From Byssochlamys sp. IMV 00236 (taxonomy: Eukaryota; Ascomycota; Eurotiomycetes; Eurotiales; Thermoascaceae): a stretch of DNA of 64,000 bases. Position numbers and translations under genes: made by a program. A model generated the notes under the pieces. The model saw nothing but the letters and a program-made list of their open reading frames with translations. It ran no database searches and had not been told where the DNA came from. The stretch covers positions 62,001-126,000 of the forward strand of contig MSJH02000805.1 of NCBI GenBank assembly GCA_001931875.2, read 5' to 3'. Every line of letters starts with the position of its first letter. The first letter of the stretch is position 1. Positions 7,322 to 28,023 of the stretch are shown here, in pieces.

Positions 7322-10300
7322 ATGGCCGCTGAACCCCAGTTTGAACAATCCGCCGTCACTCATCCCAGTCCCACGACCAGTAATGCTGGATCTGCTGGAA
7401 CTGCGGGAACGAATTCGCAGGCACAGCAGTCTGCTCCTAATTCAGGCCATGCAAGCTTCAGAAGGTGCGTGAGAGCATCCCGCAGTGGTCGGAGTGGTGG
7501 TGTTGTCCCTCCGTGAAAGTGAAAACGTGGTCGAAAGAAGGGAAATGGGGAGAGAATTTTCGGTCTGAAAACGAAGGATGGGTTACTAGGTACAGGACAT
7601 GAGCTAATAAATATGTTTGAATGCAGGCAGCGCGCGTCGCGGGCTTGTGAGGTACGTTTCTTGTTCTTTCGAGGTCCAACGCGACCTGGGGTTTGCGCGA
7701 GCCTCGGCTCTTCGATATACAGCTTATCGGCCGCCTTTTCCCCCCCTGACCGATCGCCGCAGATGGAGATCTACCATTGTATTACGGATTTTGCTAACAT
7801 TTACTCACTCTATTTTTTGGATACAATAGACTTGTCATGCTAGAAAGGTTAGTAGTGGTTTAAAGTCTTTTTATCCCTGTCGCTACCGACTAGTTTCGCG
7901 ACTTTTTGGGGCGGCGCATTTTTTGGTGCGACTGTAACTGACAATGAAATGCGATACAAAGGTACGATGCGATGCCGCCAGTCTCGGTGTGCCTTGCACA
8001 AACTGCGTAGCCTTTTCGATTGACTGTCGGATACCGACACCGAAACGAAAGAAGAACCAGAACAAAAAGGAAAATCACAGTGCCGGGTAATATACTTCCT
8101 CGTCCTACCTCCCTTGAGATGATATCAGGTCGCTTACTTTGATCTGCTAGCAGCGAGGAACCGGTCGAAACGAGACGACAAGATGCTCCGGAACCCGCCA
8201 GACCAAAGGAGGTTCTTGGTTACAGAGCCAATTCCATGTCCGTTGACGGCATGCCACCGACACGGTTTACGGAGTCTGAAGCGGCTCAACAGGCAGCTCA
8301 TGGCTCGACATATACCCAATTTATGAAGCCCAAGTTTGCCAGAGCGCCTATCAAAGAAGCTGGGAGAGTCGCGTATCTAGGGGAATCGTCGAACCTATCA
8401 CTTCTTGTCCACGACAAGAACGGGACTACGGATGTTGTCCACTATCCTCTCCCGGAGAACATTCGAGGCACGCGGGCTCGACTGACCGATCTAGACAACA
8501 TGGAGATTGAAATTCTCCACCAGCGTGGGGCGTTCCTGCTTCCTCCCAAGCAGCTATGCGACGAGCTGGTTGACGCATATTTCAAGTGGGTGGCGCCAGC
8601 TGTACCCATCATCAACCGGAGTCGGTTTATGCGACGCTACCGGGACCCGAAAAATCCTCCGTCTCTCTTGCTGTTGCAGTCTATTCTCCTAGCTGGATCA
8701 AGGGTCTGTACGAATCCACAATTAATGGACCAAAATGGCTCGACAATCCCTGCGGCCATGACGTTCTATAAGCGTGCAAAGGCATTGTACGATGCCAATT
8801 ACGAAGATGATCGGGTCACGATAGTGCAGGCGCTTGTGCTGATGAGTTGGTATTGGGAAGGCCCTGAAGGTTAGTCGGAAATGGCTGTTGTCCTTCTTGT
8901 ATCTTATTCTTAACGGACTTATTGCAGATGTTACAAAGAATGTGTTCTACTGGAGTCGCGTTGCCATTACTGTCGCGCAAGGCTCGGGAATGCACAGAAG
9001 GTGAGTCTTAAATCAAAGCAGGGATCTTCGTCTTCCACTGACAACAGGGGTAGTGTGGAGAATTCACAGCTGAGCAAACCCGACAAGAAGCTATGGAAAC
9101 GTATCTGGTGGACACTGTTCACGCGGGACCGGTCTGTAGCTGTTGCCCTTGGACGACCGGTGGCAATCAACACGGACGACTCGGATGTGGAAATGTTGAC
9201 GGAAGAAGATTTCATCGAGGATGAAGTCGACAGTCCAGCCGAGTATCCTCCGGACCCGGTCCATGTCCAGTTCTTCCTCCAGTACGTCAAACTTTGCGAG
9301 ATCATGGGCCTAGTCCTTTCGCAGCAATACTCGGTAGCATCTAAGTCTAGGAGGAACAATGCTATCGACTTGACGCACTCAGATATGGCATTGGCGGATT
9401 GGTTGCAGAACTGTCCACCCGAAGTGACCTGGGGCCGGTCTCGACATCACTTCTGGGCAGCTCTCCTGCACTCGAACTACTAGTGAGTCTTTATCATCTG
9501 TTTATATGCCCGTAGACATCATTCTAACGGAATTAGCACCACACTGTGTCTGCTGCATAGAGCTCATATGCCACCCGCTACGTCTTCCCCGAGTGGATAT
9601 CGCGTGGACGAAATGGCGTATCCATCCAGAACCATTGCGTTCCAAGCCGCTGCCATGATCACGTCCATAGTTGAGAACTTGCAATCGCACAATGAGATCC
9701 GATACACCCCCGCATTTATGTAAGCGCATTCTTCTGCCATTCATCATTGTGATAGATCTAATCCTTTGTTCAGTGTGTACAGCCTTTTCTCGGCCTTGAT
9801 AATGCACGTCTATCAGATGCGGTCCTCCGTACCCTCTGTCGTCGCAACTAGCCAGGAAAGAATCAATATATGCATGCAGGCACTCAAGGATGTGTCGAAA
9901 GCATGGCTGGTGGCCAAGATGGTGTATACTCTCTTTGATTCGATCCTCGGCAACAAGGCCCTCGAAGAACGCCTGCAGAAAGCTGCAGGAAAACGACACC
10001 AGAGGGTACGGCAGGAGAATAATAATCGCAATCCCGCGAAGAGACCCGATCATCCTCCCAAGCGCAAATTCGATGACATGGATCTCGGTCTGCCAAATGG
10101 CGGACCGACGCCTCCTGTCTCCTATGAACGGTCACGTCCGCAAACACCAGCTGCAACTCCCTCGAGAGAACTACCGCAGCATCAAGGCCAGCCGTCCTTG
10201 GCTTCCTTACAGACGACACCCAACGCGCAGCGGGCGCCTCAGGAGCCTTTCCTGGGGACTGCAGCTTCACGTGCGAACACTAGGCCGACGACGCCATTCA

Positions 10301-18163: not shown

Positions 18164-18583
18164 TCAATGCTCTTCTTCAACTTCACTGTCCACAGCAATG
18201 TATCCATACTCCGCGGTAGCGTCCTCGGCGCGCCTTTTGACTTCCGTGTCACTGTCCAAAGCAAAGTATGCATACTCCGCGGTATCCTCGGCGCGCCTTT
18301 TGACTTCCGCGTCGCTGTCCACAGCAATGTATGCATATTCCGTTGGAGCGTCTTCGGCTCTCTTGGCGGCATGGAGGGAGACTATCTGCTGTCAGTGCTT
18401 GTAGATTGTGTGTAGTTCGGAACCCAGTTCTTTTTGTGTTCTGTGCACATTTTCATCGACAGATGATGGAAATATGTAGAAGATAGACATACGGTCATCA
18501 TTGGGCTCTGCCATGGGTGCTGAATTCGCTGCAAGAGCCATGCAGAGGCCGAGAATAGCAGTAAGGGCGTTGGAGGGACGCAT
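18164..18583 (-). CDS. KEX2-processed repeat precursor peptide (dikaritin/ustiloxin-type RiPP precursor)
   Basis: Two exons on the minus strand, 18583-18493 and 18381-18164, joined across a GTATGT...ATAG intron, give about 102 residues. Residues 1-22 form a secretion signal (MRPSNALTAILGL then an Ala-rich h-region ending near NSA). After a short pro-region come three imperfect repeats, each starting with AED, containing EYAYIAVDSD, EYAYFALDSD or EYGYIAVDS, and separated by dibasic KR (residues 37-38, 58-59, 79-80). The last repeat ends in an acidic EVEEEH tail. A signal peptide, Kex2 sites and near-identical repeats with Tyr-rich cores are the hallmarks of UstA/PhomA/AprA-type precursors. Kex2 in the Golgi would release the repeats for UstYa oxidases to cyclise. 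Two UstYa-family genes and an exporter follow on the plus strand. Repeat identity at DNA level is high. The frame is easily missed because a longer shadow frame overlaps exon 2. Confidence 0.85.
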
Positions 18584-19724
18584 AGTGAATACTACGGCTT
18601 CGAAACGAGTTGTTCAGAGAAGAGTTTTTTTAAGTCGAGTGCTAGTTTCTTTTATCTTTTTCTTAATATTCCTTTGTGGACCTGTATCCTGTGTCAAAAG
18701 GGGGGGGGCTACTAGATATATATATTCATTTTGCATGGTACTTATGCTTCATTCTCCAAAAATCTTTGTATACTACACCAAGTTTCACCACCTAATCCAC
18801 AGATTTGAAATTGACTAATAGACTGGGATTGGGATTCTTGCTCTGCAGTGAAATGTCTGATTATCGTTTGTACCAGTTCTACGCAGGATTCTGTGGGAAT
18901 CTAAGATCACGGAAGCACAGACTGTACTTTGGAAGAGCATTTGATACGGGAATAGAATCTTGGTTTCTTGAAGAACTAGAGGGTACCGAAATCTATCTGC
19001 TATTGATGCCCACGGACTCCATCCTGTATTACTATTGATTACTGCTGATTATCCACTGTTCCACTCTCGTCTTTTTAGACCCTCTGCAGGTGGATCAAGA
19101 TGGTTTCCTGTTGTAGCTGCTAGATATACGGTTTGTATAGGGTAGTAGCAGCGGATTTGCAGCTCTCCTCCACAGAAGCTGTGAGCGCTGACAGATTCTT
19201 CGGATGCTGTCTGCGCCGCAGCGTAACATTCTCAACTCCAAACTGTGCAACTTCTAATATTCGCACTAGATAGACCAAAAGAACATTGCCAAATTCCACT
19301 ATCACGGCTTATCGTGTGATGCTTGGTGATTAGCAAGGGTTGTACTACAGGTCCAAAAGCTTTAGAATTGATTTGATGCCAATAGTTCCAGAATAGGCTA
19401 AGGGAGCGAGGACGACGGTGAGAACTGCACCTGTGGCATTTGGCGTAGTTGAGTAGTGGAATAACTCTGCTACAGACTGTATAACCTGTTATGATTGTGC
19501 ATTGATGTTGCATCTAACCAGTAGGATCGTTCCCCTGGGGTTGTCCTATCCAAGCAGCCACTAAGTCAAGGATGAATTTCATGATGACGAGCGCTTGTCT
19601 TGATAGTCATAATCACAAAATTCCAGAGGGCACTCTACGTTGTCTTGGAAGTTGAAAAGTGAAATATGCTATACCTCGCCGTCAAAGACTTGGTTCAACA
19701 CTAGTTAGCTGATATCCTTAAAGT
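18584..19724. other. intergenic region between precursor and first UstYa gene; one possible small gene on the minus strand
   Basis: This should hold the divergent promoters of the precursor and of the first UstYa gene. A possible two-exon reading on the minus strand starts at 19582 (MKFILDLVAAWIGQ), has an intron GTTAGA...CTGTAG and continues with ELFHYSTTPNATGAVL and a hydrophobic tail, about 60 residues in all. No family is recognised, so it is not listed as a gene. Confidence 0.3.
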
Positions 19725-20789
19725 ATGCCAAGGACAAGCACTTCACATTTCCCAATGCAAAAACGGCTTTTCAACATCTTCTCTAAGCCACCGCCCTATA
19801 AGGCAGTTGCGGACGAGGATACAGATGATGGCCACAATGAATCAATTTCTGAAGACTCCATGAAATCAAATCTTCTTGGTTACAAACTAAGTCGGGACGA
19901 AACTCTTTCCAGTCCCAGAAGAAGGTTTTTACTATGGCTAAACGTCACACTCTTCACTTTGTCATTGTTTATCCTTATGCTTTCTGCGATTCTACTCTCA
20001 GGAATTGGCAGGGGACGCAATGCAGCTTTGAAGGAAACTTCGGAATACTGTATGAGGCCATCGACTCCCATTCCGCTACTATTCTTCGGGATTAGCTAAC
20101 ACAAGGCTCAAGCTCCTCTACTTGACCGTCTTGATATTCCACTCACGACATGGCAGATGAACGCTACACTTCTCGAGCCAGATCCGTTACCTATCTACCG
20201 CCAACCACCAAGTCCAGAAGTGGACAGAGCCTGGAAACGGCTTGCAAACGTAAATCCCATTGTGGTCACCCGAGAAGATGTGATTAAATTCGGCAAAGAT
20301 CCTGATCAAGCTGCAAAATGGCCCGAGAGTTTTGGATTCGGAGATGATGCATATATCGGCCGTTTGGATGTCTTCCATCAAATCCATTGCCTGGACTGGC
20401 TCCGCCGCGAAGCATATTTCGGTCACTACTTCGGGAAGAAATGGCCTCCTGGAACAAAACCTTCGGATTTACATCTCACGCACTTGTCACACTGCATATA
20501 TCTCCTGTTGCAGAATCTTATGTGTACTGCAAACGTCGACGTCTATACGCACTACTGGGCGGATGCTCAGCTAAATGCTTTCCCCGACTTTAATATTAAT
20601 CATAAGTGTCGGGACTTCGATGCGATTCTCAAATGGCAGGAGGAGAACTCTATTGATGTGGATACCTTTGCTGCGATTAGGAGGCCACCGGGATACGAGC
20701 CTCGTATCATGTCTCATCGCTTCAAAGAGCTGTTTGGATGGTACAAAACACACGAAGATGATCACTTTGAGGGTGGGGTGATAGGATAG
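19725..20789 (+). CDS. UstYa-family (DUF3328) oxidase-like membrane protein 1
   Basis: Two exons, 19725-20049 and 20113-20789, about 333 residues. A long soluble N-terminus (about 65 residues) precedes one membrane segment (LWLNVTLFTLSLFILMLSAILL). After the intron comes the family-typical EYSPLLDRLDIPL region, then the two signature metal-binding-like motifs HQIHCLDWLR and HLSHCIYLLLQNLMC, and C-terminal HKCRDFDAI. UstYa proteins act on Kex2-released RiPP precursors, where they perform oxidative ring closures on tyrosine side chains. They are also found in other fungal pathways such as cyclochlorotine. The single anchor with a lumenal catalytic part fits action in the secretory pathway where the precursor is processed. 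Placement next to the repeat precursor strongly supports a RiPP role. Which bond it forms cannot be told from sequence. Confidence 0.9.
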
Positions 20790-21810: not shown

Positions 21811-22644
21811 ATGCCTTCAGCAATGAAGATGGCTAGCTCAATGCGAAAGCTCTTGATAATTATAGGCCCTGTTTTTCTAGTTGTCTTGTCTTCATTATTA
21901 TTACTTCTATACTCTAATAAACATTGGGGAAATGTTACTGAGCAATTTCGATATGCTATCTGCCTTCCAGAACAGTCATGGGCTACAGAGGCCCCAATCT
22001 ATCGTGCGTTTCATCCTATGGGCGCGCTCGAGACATCCGAATCACACTCCAGTCCGAACCATCAGGCGGAACAAACTTGGGAATCGTTACTTCTGCCTCC
22101 AAATGGAGGCCTCTTGCGGGTGAAGCAAGGCAATGACACCACAGCACAATATGGCGTATCTATGTTTCATCAACTACACTGCCTCATCGTATTGCGCGGG
22201 CTGCTCTTTCCAGGCACATCTCAGAACCATGAGCACTCAACGTCCTCTTCGAAGACAGGCAAACCCCATCAAGATTCTGTCCATTGGGCCCATTGCCTAG
22301 ATTATATCGCTCAGGTACGATCAAATGATGTTCTGACTAGAATTATCGCCGATTCTGACATTTCTTTTCAGGGAATCATATGCGCCGCAGATGATACTAT
22401 CGAGCCTTCACGCAGAGTGAAGAATGAGCATGGAGAGCACACGGTGGTTGTCGATGGTGTTGGACATACGCACCAATGCCGTGATCCAGTGTCATTGTGG
22501 CAAGTGGTGATGAATTCTGAATCCCATCCTATTGACCTCGGTGAATTGCGAAAGGGCGAAGGACTGCGGAGCTTCTTGGGAGATAATAACATCAAGCCTG
22601 TTGTGGACCTACATGAACTTCCAGTTCCCTATCATCCTTCGTGA
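21811..22644 (+). CDS. UstYa-family (DUF3328) oxidase-like membrane protein 2
   Basis: Exons 21811-22314 and 22372-22644 give about 258 residues. An N-terminal anchor (LLIIIGPVFLVVLSSLLLLLY) is followed by the UstYb-like PPNGGLLRVKQGN block and the signature pair MFHQLHCLIVLRG and VHWAHCLDYIAQ. Splicing then joins directly to GIICAADDTIEP, the expected continuation in this family. The intron is 57 bases, stop-free and a multiple of three, so unspliced reading gives a longer but less family-like protein. C-terminal HTHQCRD is conserved. It stands 1 kb downstream of the first UstYa gene in the same orientation. Two different UstYa proteins acting on one precursor is the arrangement seen in ustiloxin and phomopsin pathways (established for those). 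The same division of labour here is inferred. Confidence 0.9.
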   Translation: MPSAMKMASSMRKLLIIIGPVFLVVLSSLLLLLYSNKHWGNVTEQFRYAICLPEQSWATEAPIYRAFHPMGALETSESHSSPNHQAEQTWESLLLPPNGGLLRVKQGNDTTAQYGVSMFHQLHCLIVLRGLLFPGTSQNHEHSTSSSKTGKPHQDSVHWAHCLDYIAQVRSNDVLTRIIADSDISFQGIICAADDTIEPSRRVKNEHGEHTVVVDGVGHTHQCRDPVSLWQVVMNSESHPIDLGELRKGEGLRSFLGDNNIKPVVDLHELPVPYHPS

Positions 22645-23020: not shown

Positions 23021-26000
23021 TTGGAGAGTTACCTAGACTGTGAATTTTTCGCGATTGCTGAATGCTCGATTGTAGCAGACCGGTCCTTTGGGCCAGCGGT
23101 CACATGTCCATCGACGTTTGACTTCACTCTGGTCTTCGAGCAGAGCATCCTTTCAATTGGGCCATCCACAATCTTCTTGCTGCTGGTTCTATTGCAGGTT
23201 TGGAGGCTGTACAGGGCAAGCGTCAAAACGATCCCTAATTTCTCTTATTGGATTAACGTTGTGAGTACTCCTGTCAACCTTAAGGAATGTCGTGGTTGCT
23301 GATGTCAAAAGACAATTGCAATTGCTCTCCTGGCCCTACAAATAGCTTCATTAATACTATGGACGAACCACAGGATAGCCCAGACTGCTGTCCCTGCGGC
23401 TGCTTTGTCTGTGACTACTGCAGTTGCCATCATAGTCCTTTCTGCAACTGAGCACAGGAAATCTGTCAGACCATCCACTTTATTAAGCATTTATCTGCTC
23501 TTGTCAATCTTTCTAGACGGTATTCAACTCCGTACCCTATTCATACGTCACTATCCATCATCAATTGTGGGTGTTTTTACTGCTGCATTCGCTGTGAAGG
23601 TTTTGCTTTTGATCTCCGAGTCACAAAGCAAACGACCCTACCTAAAGAGTCCCTACGACCACTATCCACCAGAGTCAACAAGTGGTATATTCAACCGTAC
23701 TCTCTTCTGGTGGCTGAATGGTCTCTTTCTAGGAGGATTTCGCAAACTTCTGTCGCTGGAGGACCTCTTCCAGCCAGACGAAGCTTTGAAGTCAGCGCCA
23801 CTGAAAGTTAAGATAGAGAGCATATGGGAAAGATGTCCGTAATATCCTCCTTCTACTATATGTGAGTACTGACAACAAATTAGACGGCTCAAAAGATAAG
23901 CCCAGCCTGGTATATGTGTTGGTAGTATGTCTACAATGGCAAATCCTCCGAATTATATTCCCGCGCCTCTGCCTTATCGGATTTAGCTATGCTCAGACCT
24001 TTTTTATTCATCGTGTAATCGATTATCTCCAAGCGCCTGATACTCAGGATACTGAGAATGGGGAATACGGGTTGATCGGTGCTGCAGCCCTCATTTATGG
24101 AGGTATTGCGGTAAGTCACAATCGATAGGATTGGTCGATGACTACTTGAAACTAACAGATCTTAAAGATCTCGACTGTGCACTACAGACATGAGTTATTC
24201 CGTATGATCACAATGTTTCGGGGTGCAGTTGTCTCCCTAATATATAGCCATACACTGTCTCTGCAAGCCGGTGTCTATGATGAATCAGCATCCGTCACTC
24301 TCATGAGTACCGATGTTGATATAATTGCTCAATCTCTACAGCAGGTTAACGAAGCTTGGGCAAGACTCATAGAGATCGGAATCGGCATTTGGCTTCTGGA
24401 GAGGCAACTAGGTGCAGTATGCGTCGCTCCAATTGTCGTTGTCCTCGGTAGGTTTGGTCTACTGTCCAATGGACAGGCAACTTAGCTAATGTCTGTGTCA
24501 AGTATGCACTTCCACGCAGATGTATATGGCTAGTTTCATGCCTACAAGACAGAAGACCTGGATCCAGGCTATCCAGAGACGAGTGAGCATAATATCCGCA
24601 GCACTAAGGTCCATGAAGAGTGTGAAGATGCTCGGGATCTCGGAACAAATTGCTTTTACTCTTCAGGGTCAGAGGCTGCGAGAACTAAAGCTATCAAAGA
24701 AGTTTCGATGACTTATAGTCTGGGTCAACGTCGTCGGTAAGTTACACTGACTATCACGAGTGTACTTTCACTGAATACTAGTTTACAGCGAGTTTGCCAC
24801 AATTATGTGCACCACTTATAACCTTTGCTGCCTTTATAATACGTGCAAAGGTGAACCGCTCGCCGCAACTCTCAACTGCACAGGCGTTCACTTCGCTTGC
24901 CATTATTTCGCTGATAACCAATCCCGCACTTCAACTGCTGGCATCCATACCTGCTATCACTGCTGCCTCCGGATGTTTTTCTCGGATCCATGGGTTCCTT
25001 GTCTCTTCATCAATTGTTGACATACAGGACCACACAAGCCTCTCAAGTAGCAAATCGAGCCTACCCTCCGATCGCGATCGCCTACCTCGTGAGACTGGAG
25101 AAACCATAGAGATACGCCGTATCAAGACAAAAGAAGCTATGGAGAGAGCTCATAAGACCATCCTCACTCTATCTCATGCCATCATACGGCCTGTTCGAGA
25201 TGGTGCTTTCTACCTTCAAGACATTAATTTGCATGTCGAACAAGAAACCCTGACGATCCTCACTGGACCCGTGGGATGCGGCAAGACCACATTGCTAAAG
25301 GCCATTTTGGGTGAAATCCCTCTTGAAAGAGGGGCTGTAAAGAGGCAGACGTCAGCAATAGCTTACTGTAGCCAAAATCCCTGGTTACAGAACACCTCGA
25401 TCCTAAACATCGTATGCGGACCGTCCGCACTAGATCTCGAATGGTACCGGGAAGTGCTTCAGAGCTGCGCCCTCGATCACGAAATCTCACAAATGCCTCT
25501 AGGCGATAAGTCAGTTGTAGGCAACCGGGTGCTGACGCTAAGTGGAGGGCAAAAGCAGCGTCTGGTAAGTAATACTGTACACCCTGCCCTCTCATTTCAC
25601 TGACCGGAAATACAGGCTCTGGCTCGTGCTGCATACTCTAGAGCAAAATTAGTCGTCCTCGACGATGTTTTTAGTTCCCTCGACACTCGGACAGCGCATG
25701 TTGTCTTTGAAAATCTCTTAGGGAAATATGGCCTGTTCAGGAAGCTGGGCTCCGCGGTAATCCTGGCAACACACTCAGGTCAGTGAAACACCTTCAAATG
25801 ATTGACATATGCTGATGAGTACTGAAGCTATGCCTCTTCCTTTTGCTGATAATATAATTGTCTTTGATCCTGAGGGCCACATCACAGGACAAGGCTCTTT
25901 CGAGGATTTGAAAATGGCAAGCATCTATATCAAACAGATGCTCGCTACATCGACGAAGAACGATTCGAATCATGTAGACACCAATAAATCCGATAGCATC

Positions 26001-28023
26001 CTTCGCAAGACGGTCAAGAAACCAAGTGATGATGATATTGCGGAGGTAGCTCGCCGCACTGGCGATATAGCTGTCTACAAATATTACCTGAGGGCAATCG
26101 GTTGGCAACATACACTGCTAGCGACGATGATCATTACAATCTACTCATTCTCAGCGAACTTCCCTCGTAAGTACAGGTGGAGCCTAGACACTTGGGTGTT
26201 TCTGATCAGTATATAGAAGTATGGATCAAGTGGTTCACAGAAATCAATGGGCAGGATCCCGGAAGATTCATGGGTATATACGTCCTTCTTGCGGTAACTG
26301 CTTCCGCATCACAAGGACTCATGATCTGGTTAGCCTTAATCTTTCATATTGCTTTTCTATTCATTGACTTCTTACAGGCAAATAATGATCAAAATAGTAG
26401 TGCGATCTGGTGCCGCTTTACACAAAACTCTTGTCGAAACTGTAATGCGAGCGCCGCTACGCTTCTTTGCAGAAGTCGACTCGGGAACCGTCCTGAACAG
26501 ATTTAGTCAGGACATGACACTTGTTGATGCAGTGCTCCCAACGATGACGTTTGGAACATTTATGGGTTAGTAGTCAAAGCATCATTATGGTGATTCTGTT
26601 CTCTGAACGCTGAAGCTACATGACAGGTATTACGGAATGTTTGGCACAAGCAGCCTTGATATCACTAGGATCAGCTTACATGGCCATTACCATAGCTCCA
26701 TGTTTGCTTGTTCTATACTGCGTGCAGAAGGTCTACTTGCGCACATCACGACAGCTACGGTTCTTGGATCTTGAGGCGAGAAGCCCTCTCTACGCACACT
26801 TCGTCGAGAGACTTGAAGGTCTATCGACTATCAGAAGCTTTGGGTGGCAGTCTGCCTCTACAGAAGAATTTATTGGTCACCTCGACGTATCACAGAAACC
26901 GTATTATCTTCTGTACTGCATCCAGCGATGGCTGAACGTTGTGTTGGACCTCCTTGTCGCCGTCCTTGCTGTTATTGTCATCACTCTGGCGACATCCTTG
27001 CGTAGCACCACGAATCCAGGAGATCTTGGAGTCTCTCTCACTGCAATTCTTTCATTCAATCAGACACTACAGAACCTGGTAACTAGTTGGACCTCGATGG
27101 AGACATCTCTTGGTGCAATTGCGAGAACAAGAATGTTCGAAATGAAGACTCCATCTGAAAATGGGGCTGGAGAAGATTTCATACCTGAACCCGGCTGGCC
27201 TGCTCAGGGAAATATCGAAATCCGTTCCCTTACCGCCTCCTACGAGTAAGTCAAATATGTATTCTGCTTCTAAATCCTAGCAACTATTCATACCTTCTAA
27301 CGTTCTCAGCGGAACCACAAATGCTCTAGAAGGCATATCAATGAACATAAAATCCGGACAGAAGATCGGAATATGTGGGAGAACAGGAAGGTAGGGTTGC
27401 CAGCAACATTCCAATATCCCATCCCCATAAATCTAACACCTTAGTCTTCAAAATGTAGTGGTAAAAGCACACTCTTGTCGATTCTCCTCCGCCTCCAGGA
27501 TATCAAAACTGGAACTATACTAATCGATGATATCGACATCGTTACTATCCCGCGGAACCTTCTCCGTTCCCGCCTTATCACTATCCCACAGGATCCCTTC
27601 ATTCTTCCCGGCTCCATCCGTTTCAACGCCGACCCCATGGGAACTGCAACTGACGAAGAAATAATCTCCGCGCTGACAAAGGTCCACTTGTCGAAGCTGC
27701 TCGAATCTCGTAGCGGCGGCCTAGATGCAGATTTAACCGAACAGACATTATCCCACGGTGAACAACAATTATTCGCTTTATCGCGAGCTATCCTTCGACG
27801 GGGTAAGGGTGGCGCTGGGCGGATATTGATCCTGGATGAAGCTACGAGTAGTATGGATGTTGAAACGGATCGTTTGATTCAAGAGGTAATTCGTACGGAG
27901 TTCTCTGGTTACACGATTTTATGTGTTGCCCATCGGATGGAGACTATTAGGGACTCGGATAAGATTGCTGTATTGGATGAAGGGAGGCTTGTGAGGTTTG
28001 AACCGCCTGAGGAGTTAGCGTGA
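23021..28023 (+). CDS. ABCC-type (MRP) multidrug exporter, interrupted by an in-frame TGA; possible pseudogene
   Basis: About a dozen exons encode a full-length fungal ABCC transporter. An N-terminal TMD0 region (SFGPAV, FDFTLVFEQSIL) is followed by a first membrane domain (FNRTLFWWLNGLF, LMSTDVDII) and NBD1 with Walker A GPVGCGKTTLL, signature LSGGQKQR and Walker B LVVLDDVFSSLD. The second membrane domain has VDSGTVLNRFSQDM. NBD2 has GRTGSGKST formed across an intron, a degenerate signature LSHGEQQLF and LILDEATSSMD. Two oddities stand out. TGA at 24709-24711 replaces the Trp expected in FR-W-LIVW, while the frame is intact on both sides. The expected start position around 23054 reads ATT, with no ATG nearby. 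Position after the precursor and UstYa genes suggests product export or self-protection. Whether it is functional in this strain is doubtful. Confidence 0.8.

Follow-up and report, generated by a model that had tools for sequence, protein, structure and literature searches.

The question raised by this locus is what is made from a short gene, lying in a 64,000-nucleotide stretch of DNA from Byssochlamys sp. IMV 00236 (hereafter the window), whose product carries three KR-separated repeats with two tyrosines two residues apart, and whether the genes beside it belong to the same pathway. The class of system is already known, namely a Kex2-processed repeat protein (KEP) encoded beside DUF3328 genes, and the new part is a testable YxY core: it has been reported that 7878 KEPs occur in 1345 of 1461 strains, that 22% of them adjoin DUF3328 genes and, in work cited by the same source, that more than 40 core types come from Aspergillus (PMC7329392). 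An older five-gene definition of dikaritins (Ding et al., cited in PMC12048977) includes a tyrosinase and a methyltransferase; since working clusters without such genes were reported later (PMC12048977), the definition by DUF3328 (Montalban-Lopez 2021, cited in PMC12048977) is adopted here. On this basis we consider it probable, at about three chances in four, that the locus is a tyrosinase-free dikaritin-type RiPP cluster made up of the precursor, two UstYa genes (UstYa-1 and UstYa-2) and an ABC transporter, in which copper-dependent UstYa proteins crosslink the core.

Structure of the precursor gene

The precursor gene occupies 18583..18164 on the minus strand and consists of two exons with a predicted spliced product of 102 aa, as read from the sequence and its translation. 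The first-pass annotation had proposed these coordinates, the strand, the intron and the three KR-separated repeats, all of which match. Its features are as follows.

18493..18583 (-): exon 1, start codon and signal-peptide-like N-terminus (sequence, translation, hydropathy)
18382..18492 (-): intron, GTATGT...GATAG, 111 bp; junction agrees with the protein of Paecilomyces variotii (P0001)
18164..18381 (-): exon 2, three KR-separated units and stop codon (translation, 63-bp tandem repeat)
18320..18337 (-): unit 1 core YAYIAV; YAYIAA in P. variotii
18257..18274 (-): unit 2 core YAYFAL; identical in P. variotii
18191..18208 (-): unit 3 core YGYIAV; identical in P. variotii

Once the 111-bp intron (18492-18382, GTATGT...ACTGACAGCAGATAG) is removed, the 102-aa precursor reads MRPSNALTAILGLCMALAANSAPMAEPNDDLSLHAAKR / AEDAPTEYAYIAVDSDAEVKR / RAEDTAEYAYFALDSDTEVKR / RAEDATAEYGYIAVDSEVEEEH. 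Left unspliced, the start frame meets a stop within the intron. Alternative GT/GC-AG splicings likewise leave the frame open and were set aside, because GTATGT...GATAG alone gives PNDD-LSLH, the junction seen in the P. variotii database protein; this agreement supports 18492..18382 as the preferred splicing. The N-terminus holds a hydrophobic stretch at residues 9-19 (best 11-mer Kyte-Doolittle mean 2.46), the putative signal peptide being judged from hydropathy alone. With this leader, and with a core and recognition motifs that recur at KR sites, the precursor has the build of a dikaritin precursor; the three units contain EYAYIAVDS, EYAYFALDS and EYGYIAVDS, AED stands before every core, and the Tyr-x-Tyr of OF4949 is encoded in three of three units.

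When the mature part of the precursor was shuffled 200,000 times, three YxYxA motifs were never reached (two or more in 294) and three KR sites were reached in 30, counts which, together with the P. variotii homologue, led us to reject a chance repeat or spurious frame. Tandem Repeats Finder reports the array as a 63-bp repeat of 2.5 copies (score 253), and an ungapped comparison over 14 codons per unit gave 7 identical, 2 synonymous and 5 nonsynonymous codons for repeats 1-2 and again for repeats 1-3, and 9, 0 and 5, respectively, for repeats 2-3. The repeat copies look young, and as the units are also alike in DNA, partly through duplication, their likeness within the gene is on its own no proof of selection. 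Protein and DNA searches of the same genome returned one match each, the precursor locus itself, and no second copy of the core.

A relative of the precursor in P. variotii

A search that covered proteins of about 56-178 aa with shared 5-residue words, a reach outside which longer precursors fall, yielded 125 candidates, two of them at E <= 10, namely the unspliced frame of the window and the P. variotii hypothetical protein DTO169E5_9026, which has 102 aa, is 93% identical to the window precursor and shows the same PNDD-LSLH exon junction. This one word-limited search found no precursor relatives outside Paecilomyces, though relatives of UstYa-1 are widespread. The two precursors differ at seven positions (P3L, M24V, E45L, V51A, S53N, D54E and T76A), four of which (45, 51, 53 and 54) fall in unit 1, where the P. 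variotii core is YAYIAA and where constraint may be weak. None of the seven touches YxYxA, and Y-[A/G]-Y-[I/F]-A is identical between the species in all six units compared. As a sign of constraint this identity is thin evidence, coming as it does from close species.

Neighbouring genes and the UstYa pair

The precursor is followed, in divergent orientation, by UstYa-1, UstYa-2 and an ABC transporter, arranged as listed below.

18584..19724 (.): stretch of 1141 bp between the divergent start codons of precursor and UstYa-1 (measured distance), probably containing the promoters of both
19725..20789 (+): UstYa-1, 333 aa, intron 20050-20112; PF11807, E 1.3e-63, motifs HQIHC and HLSHC
21811..22644 (+): UstYa-2, 258 aa, intron 22315-22371; PF11807, E 5.7e-23, motifs HQLHC and HWAHC
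23287..28023 (+): ABC transporter with two nucleotide-binding domains; spliced model with two ABC_tran stretches and ABC_membrane

Thus the DUF3328/UstYa enzyme expected beside a dikaritin precursor is represented by two PF11807 proteins, each with a single hydrophobic stretch near the N-terminus and with HxxHC occurring twice, and the expected transporter or peptidase by the ABC transporter. The latter, which we take to be probably of ABCC type, scores 27.7 bits for TMD0_ABC on the ORF piece 23303-23839 (cut-off 27); its model is a simple dynamic-programming splice in which the start and some exons are provisional. No premature stop interrupts the precursor or either UstYa gene, and the same is true of the transporter as modelled. 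The adjacent UstYa pair, the transporter and the consecutive P. variotii tags described below lend support to the dikaritin-type assignment, which the first-pass annotation had based on the precursor only.

No peptidase or regulator was identified in the cluster. A gene with a fungal-specific transcription factor domain (PF04082, two ORF pieces) lies at 8143-9483 (+) of the window, about 8.7 kb from the precursor and separated from it by other ORFs, with nothing that ties it to regulation of the cluster. Family searches of the genome, which read six frames, ignoring introns, and can therefore miss genes, gave three matches to the Kex2-like protease P-domain, none at the cluster, and no S41 peptidase in the genome. 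Two of the P-domain matches (C459:11616-11873 and C710:14027-14284) have the same score and length on different contigs, and may reflect duplication of the gene or, alternatively, redundancy within the 47.4-Mb assembly. The same searches found two tyrosinase (PF00264) exon matches, both on another contig (C806) and none on the contig of the window (C802), so that by this search the cluster lacks the tyrosinase of the older five-gene definition.

A search for homologues of UstYa-1 found 195, of which 120 were listed and 64 of those listed aligned with the UstYa-1 domain; in the resulting 65-row alignment the first HxxHC does not vary, and 64 of 65 rows have the second, the remaining row showing a gap. 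The structure model of the UstYa-1 domain has a mean pLDDT of 93.1 and places both motifs on helices, the position also reported for them in the copper enzyme CctR (PMC12435403); comparison of the fold with solved structures gave no convincing match. In CctR, a DUF3328 hydroxylase, the HxxHC pair has been reported to form a binuclear copper site, alanine mutants of which are inactive (PMC12435403), and the asperipin cyclase AprY is described as copper- and oxygen-dependent (PMC12435403; PMC12186524).

In P. variotii the UstYa-1 orthologue DTO169E5_9027 matches at 98% over 97%, and the UstYa-2 orthologue DTO169E5_9028 at 95% over 72% with the same intron junction; together with the precursor they bear the consecutive tags DTO169E5_9026, 9027 and 9028, each listed with a 55,688-base contig. 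Taking equal contig size as a proxy for the same contig, a UstYa-2 match accompanies five of the nine best named UstYa-1 matches (P. variotii, Aspergillus coremiiformis, A. homomorphus, A. sclerotioniger and A. ibericus); among the best 120 of 138 UstYa-2 matches, no such partner was found for A. piperis, A. saccharolyticus, A. carbonarius or Talaromyces atroroseus. Penicillium atrosanguineum carries a UstYa-2-like and a UstYa-1-like protein under the adjacent tags 006711 and 006712. Since the pair recurs in named relatives, including these adjacent tags, the two oxidase genes appear to have formed a unit for a long time. In Aspergillus flavus, a UstYa-1-like (P0060) and a UstYa-2-like protein (P0166) are both listed with a 486,852-base contig.

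Comparison with known systems

By gene content the closest system appears to be asperipin-2a, the window having one extra UstYa gene. The asperipin-2a cluster has been described as aprA, aprY, aprT and aprR, encoding the precursor, one UstYa homologue, a transporter and a reductase (PMC6514808), and a KR-repeat precursor, UstYa, a transporter, a small cluster and the lack of a tyrosinase are features that both have in common (PMC6514808). Because the genome search found no tyrosinase on the contig of the window, the gene content of the cluster is nearer to asperipin-2a than to ustiloxin or phomopsin, for whose cyclisation tyrosinase has been reported to be indispensable (PMC7329392). Asperipin-2a differs, however, in having exactly one UstYa gene plus an isoflavone-reductase-like gene, where two UstYa genes are found here, and in its core FYYTGY, as opposed to Y[A/G]Y[I/F]A in the window. 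A signal peptide, KR repeats and UstYa genes are shared with the ustiloxin and phomopsin systems too, and AED before the core parallels the ED flank of the UstA cores, which are flanked by ED and KR (PMC6514808), whereas the ustiloxin and phomopsin cores YAIG, YVIG and YVIP, with their Tyr-Ile ring, differ from those of the window. A repeat unit of 21 aa with its tyrosines far from KR, compared with 13 aa in ustiloxin, 14 in phomopsin and 8 in asperipin-2a (PMC7329392), counts against the dikaritin-type reading. Further points on that side are that no peptidase or regulator was identified in the cluster, that differences from P. variotii gather in unit 1, that the one word-limited search showed no precursor relative beyond Paecilomyces, and that the UstYa-1 fold resembled no solved structure convincingly.

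For the core itself, the closest precedent would be OF4949, a fungal Tyr-x-Tyr tripeptide with C-O crosslinked tyrosines that inhibits aminopeptidase B (PMC13192836), although in the window precursor residues beyond YxY are conserved. A title cited there describes the OF4949 pathway as using a copper-dependent oxidase and its product as minimal and ribosomally derived (PMC13192836); from an earlier title of the same authors we infer that this oxidase is a DUF3328 protein. Tyrosines two residues apart are also crosslinked in the bacterial aminopyruvatide YLY and in an engineered biarylitide Tyr-X-Tyr, but these bacterial YxY RiPPs use cytochrome P450, and KR repeats are not among the features that their reports describe (PMC13192836, PMC10929621).

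Proposed pathway and alternative explanations

In the dikaritin-type reading, the precursor would enter the secretory pathway, where cleavage by Kex2 after KR could release three peptides, each with AED...Y-[A/G]-Y-[I/F]-A. UstYa-1 and UstYa-2 would then act in the lumen as membrane-anchored binuclear copper oxidases and introduce a crosslink into the core, in which one tyrosine or both of the conserved pair most likely take part; further trimming by other enzymes, followed by export, could yield as many as three small cyclic products. These steps, from Kex2 cleavage through copper chemistry and crosslinking to export, are all put forward by analogy with the systems above. The earlier suggestion of up to three related products from one precursor is thus possible.

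That the two tyrosines do not change hints at a bond between them, such as the aryl bond of OF4949; an ether from the tyrosine oxygen to a beta-carbon, as in asperipin-2a, is fully possible as well. By our count, the ring would have 17 members as a diaryl ether, 15 with a biaryl bond and 14 if the para oxygen is joined to the beta-carbon. A tentative proposal, which we do not favour strongly, is that the UstYa pair joins the tyrosines of YAY and YGY through their aryl groups without a tyrosinase, which would make the locus a KEP-encoded, multi-core relative of OF4949; if so, and if trimming proceeded to tripeptides, crosslinked products would be expected at [M+H]+ 414.166 (YAY) and 400.150 (YGY). 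For the six-residue cores carrying one crosslink, the calculated [M+H]+ values are 697.356 (YAYIAV), 745.356 (YAYFAL) and 683.340 (YGYIAV).

Macrocyclisation is not the only reaction reported for DUF3328 proteins, which also carry out halogenation, hydroxylation, oxidation and isomerisation according to the same work (PMC12435403); the UstYa proteins may accordingly act on this precursor by other chemistry, such as hydroxylation or dehydrogenation, with no ring through the YxY core. We regard this as unlikely, given that the two tyrosines and the alanine two residues on are precisely the part that is unchanged in six of six units, and that tyrosine has been reported in 65.6% versus 38.2% of repeated sequences, KEPs with DUF3328 neighbours being the enriched group (PMC7329392). 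Rather less probable is that Kex2 releases a linear peptide for secretion, such as a pheromone or a signal in development, and that the adjoining UstYa genes serve something else. The combination of signal peptide and KR repeats is indeed common to alpha-pheromone precursors, and sexual development of Neurospora crassa needs POI2, a ustiloxin-type KEP (PMC7329392); KEPs of the mating-factor or pheromone kind, however, are described as having no DUF3328 neighbours, with three exceptions (PMC7329392), whereas two UstYa genes adjoin the precursor here and, judging by the tags, in P. variotii too.

The least probable of these explanations, at very long odds, is a silent or decaying cluster with no product. 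Three units are few, and the clustering of differences within unit 1 could be taken as erosion, yet, as described above, no stop interrupts the precursor, either UstYa gene or the modelled transporter, and YxYxA has been spared by every one of the precursor differences. The dikaritin-type cluster remains our preferred reading.

Novelty and significance

The unfamiliarity of the core, remarked on when the gene was first noted, holds for the searchable literature: no match was found for YAYIAV, YGYIAV, EYAYIA, YAYFAL or EYGYIA in a search that covered main texts and few subscription papers. The core may nevertheless be one of the more than 40 types reported from Aspergillus. In the main text of the P. 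variotii genome paper, RiPP and DUF3328 each occur 0 times, and among the best 25 of 73 papers that join two of the terms P. variotii, RiPP, UstYa, DUF3328 and Kex2, two name P. variotii, and by their titles these deal with a lichen holobiont and a Streptomyces genome. As a small cluster with no nearby tyrosinase and with cores that allow exact mass predictions, the locus offers a cheap test of a UstYa pair on Tyr-x-Tyr, and of whether aryl coupling or a beta-carbon ether is to be expected from two tyrosines with one residue between them; the answer would help to infer the products of many KEP-UstYa clusters known as sequence only.

Other KEPs in this genome

Regions of about 10 kb on each side of the UstYa places on six other contigs were scanned for KR repeats. 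With simple filters, no array was found at the UstYa places of C663, C654, C806 and C812. A second KEP lies at C827:104818-105264 (L014:7319-7765, minus strand), with 11 KR-separated units of SADDEAIPFYP, one reading SADDEAITFYP. A signal-like exon precedes this array, and a UstYa gene with a candidate start 1116 bp away runs divergently from it; the core of this KEP differs from that of the window precursor, but the divergent UstYa arrangement is common to both. The third, at about 172.8-173.5 kb of C810 (L011, minus strand; L017), has four more divergent KR-separated units, D..N[D/E]L..[Y/F]Y[I/V], and adjoins UstYa exons at C810:171662-172150 and 175089-175352. In the genome of this Paecilomyces-like mould, KEP-UstYa pairs number at least three, and their cores differ. 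On C806, the tyrosinase matches (274469-275244) adjoin UstYa exons at 276267-277505, an arrangement like that of ustiloxin.
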